This document shows positions 61,612 to 63,175 of a stretch of DNA of 64,000 nucleotides, piece by piece. The notes beneath the pieces were generated by a model that was given only the letters and a program-made list of their open reading frames with translations, did no database searches and was not told the DNA's origin. Position numbers and translations under genes: made by a program. The stretch covers positions 1 to 64,000 of the forward strand of contig CALDZP010000052.1 of the NCBI GenBank assembly GCA_937944105.1. Reading direction: 5' to 3'. Position 1 is the first letter of the stretch. Each line of letters begins with the position of its first letter. Source of the stretch: an uncultured Ignavibacteria bacterium (lineage in GTDB: Bacteria; Bacteroidota; Ignavibacteria; Ch128b).

Positions 61612-62684
61612 TGAATGATAAAATAATTATTTATCCAGCAAGTTGGCTTTATAATGCAGGGGTTATAGGATTAATCTCCAGTTACCCAAGGTTTTTTACC
61701 TTCCAGGATGGAAGCGTTGAAATTAATAGAGGACTTTTCAATGATATTGATTTTGAATCAAATTATTTCAAAGACGGTAAAGTGATTAATCTAAAGGGTA
61801 AAAATGCTTATTACCCAAACTTTATTGATGTAAGAGGCGTTCAAATAGAAATATTCAAAGAATACATTACTTCATTTAATGAACTGGAAAATACCGGAAA
61901 TTGCCATGTTTGTTCAAGTCCTTATTACATTAAAAAAAATAAATATGAAGATCTTAAAAAGAAATATGCTAAAGCGAATGATTTCTTTTCAAAGATAAAG
62001 AATTTCGACATGGTTTTTAATAAGCTTCTTGGACCATCGAAATCAAAATTTCCTAATGGTTTCTGGAATACAAGTGAAAGTCTTGAAATTTGTCACCTTT
62101 GTAGTTTTGTTTTAATTCATCATCATTTAGTCTATGTTGATCTTTTCGACAATTCTCAAATATTTATAAATGCACCATCTTTCAAGCTAATGTTTGAATT
62201 GAATCGGATAGTGAAAGCACTTTCCGAATATGATGTAGTTGATAATCAAAAATCAAAAAGTAGAATTTTAGCAACTTCAATTATTGAATATGCAAGAAAA
62301 GTTCAAGCAAATTTTGGCAAATGGACCTCTATGAATATAGAAATAGTTATAAAATCTAAAGACAATATTGAATTTTTCTCTTTACCTTTTGATGTTATTA
62401 ATATTATTTCTGACCGTAACATAGCAACTTTGCTTAATGAAATTGGAGAGACAAATATTCTTGAGATTATACTTGATAAGAAATATACTGAATTAATCGA
62501 ACAAGCTTATAAAATATTAAGAATATGCCTAAAAAAACCAGAAGATATCACAAAAAATGATAACGACCTTATTAAAAATTTCTTGAAGCTTGAACAAAAT
62601 AAATCCAATCCAAAAGAATTTGCATATAAACTCTTAAAACTCTATTCACTTATCGAGGATAAACTAAAAGGAGTTACAATATGA
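61608..62684 (+). CDS. cas8: CRISPR-associated protein Cas8 (Cst1-like, CXXC-CXXC type)
   Basis: This 358-residue protein has the paired zinc-binding CXXC motifs of the Cst1/CXXC-CXXC family: C99-x-x-C102 (CHVCSSPYY) and C162-x-x-C165 (CHLCSF). It starts MMNDKIIIYPASWLYNAGVIGLI, as Cst1-type Cas8 proteins do. It is the large subunit of the type I-B Cascade and is expected to recognise the PAM. GGAGG sits 7 bases before the ATG at 61608. It is short for a Cas8, which matters for the next ORF. It overlaps the next gene by 4 bases. Confidence 0.85.
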   Translation: MMNDKIIIYPASWLYNAGVIGLISSYPRFFTFQDGSVEINRGLFNDIDFESNYFKDGKVINLKGKNAYYPNFIDVRGVQIEIFKEYITSFNELENTGNCHVCSSPYYIKKNKYEDLKKKYAKANDFFSKIKNFDMVFNKLLGPSKSKFPNGFWNTSESLEICHLCSFVLIHHHLVYVDLFDNSQIFINAPSFKLMFELNRIVKALSEYDVVDNQKSKSRILATSIIEYARKVQANFGKWTSMNIEIVIKSKDNIEFFSLPFDVINIISDRNIATLLNEIGETNILEIILDKKYTELIEQAYKILRICLKKPEDITKNDNDLIKNFLKLEQNKSNPKEFAYKLLKLYSLIEDKLKGVTI

Positions 62685-63175
62685 CACTCGAAGAATTAAA
62701 CCAAAAAGTATTAACAGAAGAATTCTCATATCAAGAATTTGAATTATTCTATAAAAATCTAATGAATCAATTTTTAGAATTTCAAAAAACTCTTGAAGAA
62801 GCAGCACTTGTTGCTCGTAATGATAAAGATAAATTTCAAAGATTATTAAGAATTGTTTCTGGCAAAAATTCTTCAGATTTAATTGAAAGATTAAAAAAAC
62901 TTGGATATCGTTATCGTAAATCAAGTATTGAATCAATTCAGGTTTCTTTTGCGAATATGGGATATAGATTACTTGAACAAACAAGAGCGGGGAAAAGAGA
63001 TGATGTTTATTATGGGTTGCTTAGAATTTTTATTGCTGCAAAGGAAAATTTTCCATTAGATCTTGTTGAAGCTTTCAAACCATATTATTCCGATGAATTA
63101 TTTAAAACATTTATTTTCTCTTTTTTAAGTGGATTACTTGGGCAAGAAGAACAAACATTAAATGAGGAGAATTAA
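62681..63175 (+). CDS. Small helical protein in the cas operon (possible Cas11-like subunit)
   Basis: This 164-residue protein has no cysteine, histidine or tryptophan. It looks all-helical with high Lys/Glu content ([51 protein letters not shown]). It is locked between cas8 (4-base ATGA overlap) and cas7 (2-base gap), so it is surely part of the complex. I do not recognise it. Small helical Cas11 subunits are often made from an internal start in cas8 in type I-B. Here the short Cas8 plus a separate helical ORF suggests that the small subunit has its own gene. That function is inference. Confidence 0.8.

Follow-up and report, generated by a model that had tools for sequence, protein, structure and literature searches.

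The small subunit of type I Cascade is a helical protein made from a separate gene in type I-A (Csa5) and in type I-E (Cse2). According to a 2026 paper, types I-A and I-E have a Cas11 gene of their own, and type I-B is listed among the types without a stand-alone one (PMC13199841); a 2018 table gives the I-B genes as cas6, cas8b1, cas7, cas5, cas3, cas4, cas1 and cas2 (PMC6079278). The type I-B complex of Synechocystis PCC 6714 has the composition Cas8b1-Cas7b7-Cas5b1-Cas6b1-Cas11b3, and its belly consists of three Cas11b and the C-terminal domain of Cas8b, with basic residues that hold the non-target strand (PMC11096372). In Haloferax volcanii, efficient interference is abolished when Cas11b is missing (PMC11899642). 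In E. coli the internal start of the Thermotoga maritima system did not work, and Cas11 had to be supplied as a separate gene (PMC13199841). In the open-licence papers found, type I-B Cas11 is described solely as an internal translation product, and subscription papers may discuss a stand-alone form.

Here, we analysed a stretch of 64,000 nucleotides from an uncultured Ignavibacteria bacterium (the window, which forms the first part of contig C52), in which a small ORF lies between cas8 and cas7. On the basis of profile matches and gene order, we consider it highly probable that this ORF is cas11b, encoding the small subunit of type I-B Cascade as a gene of its own right after a shortened cas8b. 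Two PADLOC profiles for Cas11b matched nearly the whole protein: PDLC01193 (CAS-I-B, effector_SS) covered residues 2-158 with an E-value of 1.3e-49, and PDLC01190, which PADLOC describes as 'Small subunit of some of I-B systems', covered residues 9-154 with an E-value of 1.6e-39. Both were also matched by all 12 aligned cas11b homologues, and the earlier suggestion of a possible stand-alone Cas11 is thereby strengthened. The window protein resembles this PADLOC family in its near full-length match, in the subtype and in the description as an effector small subunit found in some I-B systems, and none of the features tested separates it from the family. It also shares with Csa5 and Cse2 a separate gene, a helical make-up and the role of a type I Cascade small subunit; however, none of the PADLOC profiles named for those two proteins matched the ORF up to an E-value of 1. 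The original prediction had further held that no standard cas product was known in this position, which is wrong, as PADLOC already has a Cas11b family; the stand-alone Cas11b family is thus already catalogued (PADLOC 2023 library). Since neither Pfam nor NCBIfam holds a family model that matches the ORF, it would receive a 'hypothetical' annotation. The assignment thus names a gene which these two collections leave without a family, and it corrects the general claim that I-B systems lack a separate cas11.

The ORF belongs to a type I-B effector operon that also comprises cas6, cas8b, cas7, cas5 and cas3 (Table 1). The window stops inside cas7, and the contig continues past its end with the rest of cas7, followed by cas5, cas3, cas4, cas1 and cas2, so that the complete type I-B operon reads cas6-cas8b-cas11b-cas7-cas5-cas3-cas4-cas1-cas2. 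The NCBIfam models for Cas7 (Cst2/DevR), Cas5b and Cas1b each scored over their cut-offs, and the operon was therefore assigned to type I-B. The completeness of the operon also speaks for the assignment of the ORF to cas11b. The 'Cst1 operon' label used for it earlier is a loose one, because the window Cas8 strongly matched the Cas8b profile PDLC01204 (E 3.3e-98; residues 4-354 against profile positions 2-335 of 337), whereas the Cst1-named profile PDLC00966 gave just one match, a weak one, among the seven aligned Cas8 proteins. The Pfam model Cas_CXXC_CXXC scored barely over its cut-off against this Cas8b, in which both CXXC pairs are conserved (C99 and C102, C162 and C165). In some relatives (L014:2002-3444, L008:2660-4078 and L013) Cas7 is enlarged by about 130 residues through an in-frame insertion that follows the position of window Cas7 residue 184; no separate Pfam domain was found in L014.

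Table 1. Features of the type I-B effector operon in the window
Feature	Position	Strand	Evidence and remarks
cas6, crRNA-processing endoribonuclease	60874..61611	+	Pfam PF01881 E 6.5e-28; TIGR01877 E 1.7e-25
cas8b large subunit, without small-subunit region	61608..62684	+	358 aa; PADLOC PDLC01204 Cas8b
Predicted Shine-Dalgarno region of cas11b (AAAGGAG and neighbours)	62668..62676	+	Inside 3' end of cas8b; sequence AAACTAAAAGGAGTTACAATATGA
cas11b, highly probable stand-alone small subunit of type I-B Cascade	62681..63175	+	164 aa; PADLOC PDLC01193 and PDLC01190, gene order, helical model
cas7 (Cst2/DevR)	63178..64000, past window end; full gene C52:63178-64230	+	TIGR02585 E 6.9e-45, full protein

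The two genes were also compared with PDLC02050, a profile of one-piece Cas8b with 496 positions. The window Cas8 matched positions 171-394 and the ORF positions 397-494, with residues 1-57 of the ORF lying outside the match; the same profile matched all seven Cas8b proteins and 11 of the 12 Cas11b homologues. Because these matches are collinear, they support a reading of the Cas8b/Cas11b pair as a large subunit whose C-terminal small-subunit region resides in a second gene. At the profile level this agrees with the earlier proposal that a large subunit had been split and its helical C-terminus made a gene of its own. It might be argued that Cas8b still yields an internal Cas11 product, with the separate gene as an additional copy, since characterised type I-B systems use internal initiation within cas8b. 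However, the window Cas8b stops near position 394 of the profile, ahead of the Cas11 part, and a comparison of Cas11b with any part of the window Cas8b by hhalign gave no convincing similarity (probability 4%), which makes this explanation very improbable. The same value argues against Cas11b being a simple duplication of the Cas8b C-terminus. No one-piece Cas8b-Cas11b relative was found among 396 genomes of the phylum or among 100 of the phylum to which a Bipolaricaulota locus belongs, and in this analysis the fused state is thus represented by the PADLOC profile only. On balance, we lean towards the view that in the type I-B systems of this lineage Cas11b is permanently separated from Cas8b, or was never fused to it, with a gene and a ribosome-binding site of its own. 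If this is true, fused and separate forms would be alternative states of one subunit within a single subtype, and the lineage would offer a natural two-gene I-B Cascade which requires no internal start in heterologous use.

The AlphaFold model of Cas11b, built with seven sequences, shows a small, all-helical protein of eight helices and no strands (mean pLDDT 86.4, pTM 0.72), in line with the mostly helical ORF foreseen by the original prediction. A Foldseek search with this model against PDB and BFVD, run without a positive control, returned no match below an E-value of 0.001 and no Cas11 or Cas8 among the PDB matches. Small helical bundles are difficult targets for structure searches. Type I-B Cas11b is reported to have low sequence identity to other Cas11 proteins (PMC11096372). 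The top matches of a PDB profile search with the Cas11b alignment (DARPins and designed helices) were rejected as chance, caused by a short 'LLE..RAG..DDV' resemblance. For Cas8b the model was of moderate confidence (pLDDT 71), and Foldseek gave no useful match with it. The lack of a structural match to a solved Cas11, together with the fact that helical proteins of such size are common, could speak for an accessory operon protein unrelated to Cas11 (e.g., a helical protein of regulatory or anti-CRISPR-like kind) that merely occupies the Cas11 position. We regard this as unlikely by a wide margin, given the strong Cas11b profile matches and the collinear fused profile, the cas8-cas7 position that is constant wherever the gene is found, and the fact that the operon would otherwise be left without a small subunit.

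The identification as Cas11b also fits the distribution of the gene. When the operons of relatives were checked for absence of the ORF, 11 further distinct loci proved to have kept it, with cas8 and cas7 on either side. Its carriers include members of the window's own genus and family, MAGs of Melioribacteraceae and of Ignavibacteriae, further representatives of the class and phylum, and one Bipolaricaulota MAG. These relatives would likewise place the window organism in the Ignavibacteria. The homologues in these loci are 29-56% identical along most of their length, so the ORF is no chance frame; the gaps between cas8 and cas11 range from -23 to +4 bases, and four basic residues (R96, R102, R115 and K133) are invariant among the 12 homologues. 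Among the relatives, the five closest pairs gave dN/dS values of about 0.03-0.10, with dS at or near saturation in several, which indicates purifying selection on cas11b. The gene is rare: of the 61 genomes in the relatives set three carried it, counting the window's own, and within the phylum it turned up in seven of the 396 genomes searched, one of these being a weak case with internal stop codons. In the contig scan, a single-sequence query found nothing and an alignment query found six loci; no relatives of cas11b were found in the plasmids and viral contigs searched. PDLC01193 also matches Methanocaldococcus jannaschii, used as a control genome, thus the family extends to archaea. Together, these data bear on the possibility that a fused cas8b was recently split by a frameshift or nonsense mutation, be it a pseudogene or a sequencing error. 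The summed length of Cas8 and the ORF (522 aa) is indeed near the 496 positions of PDLC02050, matched in order. However, the same split occurs in the other 11 loci, which come from two phyla. The second piece starts with an ATG and a Shine-Dalgarno site of its own and is under purifying selection, and the one-piece form was not found in the 396 and 100 genomes of the two phyla. The conserved split refutes such an event, to which we assign practically no probability.

The cas11b reading frame is intact, with an ATG start and 164 codons. Its start is overlapped by the cas8 stop at 62684 in an ATGA, and 2 bases separate its end from the cas7 start, exactly as described originally; the sizes given for the two proteins (358 and 164 residues) agree with the coordinates as well. 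Within the last cas8 codons an AGGAG stands at proper spacing from the ATG and constitutes an own ribosome-binding site, with a Shine-Dalgarno/anti-SD duplex of -8.2 kcal/mol in the window. Such a site was found in 12 of 12 loci examined (duplex -3.9 to -12.9). We also considered whether the cas11b site would be stronger than that of cas8b, as might be expected if extra copies of the small subunit are made; the data do not support this, as the cas8b site is usually equal or stronger. The cas8b site GCTGGAGGTGAT (window 61590-61608) also encodes the conserved C-terminal GMLEV motif of Cas6, and because of these double-duty codons the strength of the ribosome-binding site and the conservation of the protein are inseparable there. 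The frame of an antisense ORF at 62664-62984 is not kept open in relatives.

By analogy with the known complexes, cas11b would be translated off the operon mRNA through both coupling to cas8b and its own ribosome-binding site, and several Cas11b copies may then line up end to end along the Cas7-crRNA backbone beside Cas8b to form the belly. Basic residues of Cas11b would hold the displaced non-target strand, which would stabilise the R-loop and allow recruitment of Cas3. Both this DNA-binding role and the copy number are inferred from the described systems, and R96, R102, R115 and K133 may be proposed, by inference only, as candidate DNA or partner contacts. The Cas11b proteins of Synechocystis PCC 6714 and Haloferax volcanii are of the same subtype, presumably play the same role and likewise correspond to the C-terminal part of one-piece Cas8b. 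In those two organisms, however, Cas11b is a second product of cas8b, whereas in the window it is encoded by a separate gene behind a shorter Cas8b, and this gene would take the place of their internal cas8b start site. Natural two-gene Cas8b/Cas11b pairs could help to date the small-subunit split and may ease reconstitution in foreign hosts (compare the Thermotoga maritima system in E. coli).

In a genome of the same genus (G002), the complete operon is directly followed by about 93 repeats of GTTTTAATCGAACCATTGTGGAATTGAAAC. The window's genome has one such repeat, at C52:69755-69784 (L002:9755-9784), about 100 bases after cas2 and 166 bases before the contig end, with two mismatches from the same-genus array repeat. 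No second repeat was found in this genome at up to 2-3 mismatches, and the sequence after the single repeat holds an open frame on the minus strand and no further repeat. The array may have been eroded or lost, or it may have collapsed in assembly. As there is a single CRISPR repeat only, near the contig end, activity of the system in the window's genome is uncertain.

In the Bipolaricaulota MAG, cas11b occurs twice on different contigs (L041 on G429:C37 and L010 on G429:C38), and the two copies suggest that this MAG carries two type I-B loci.
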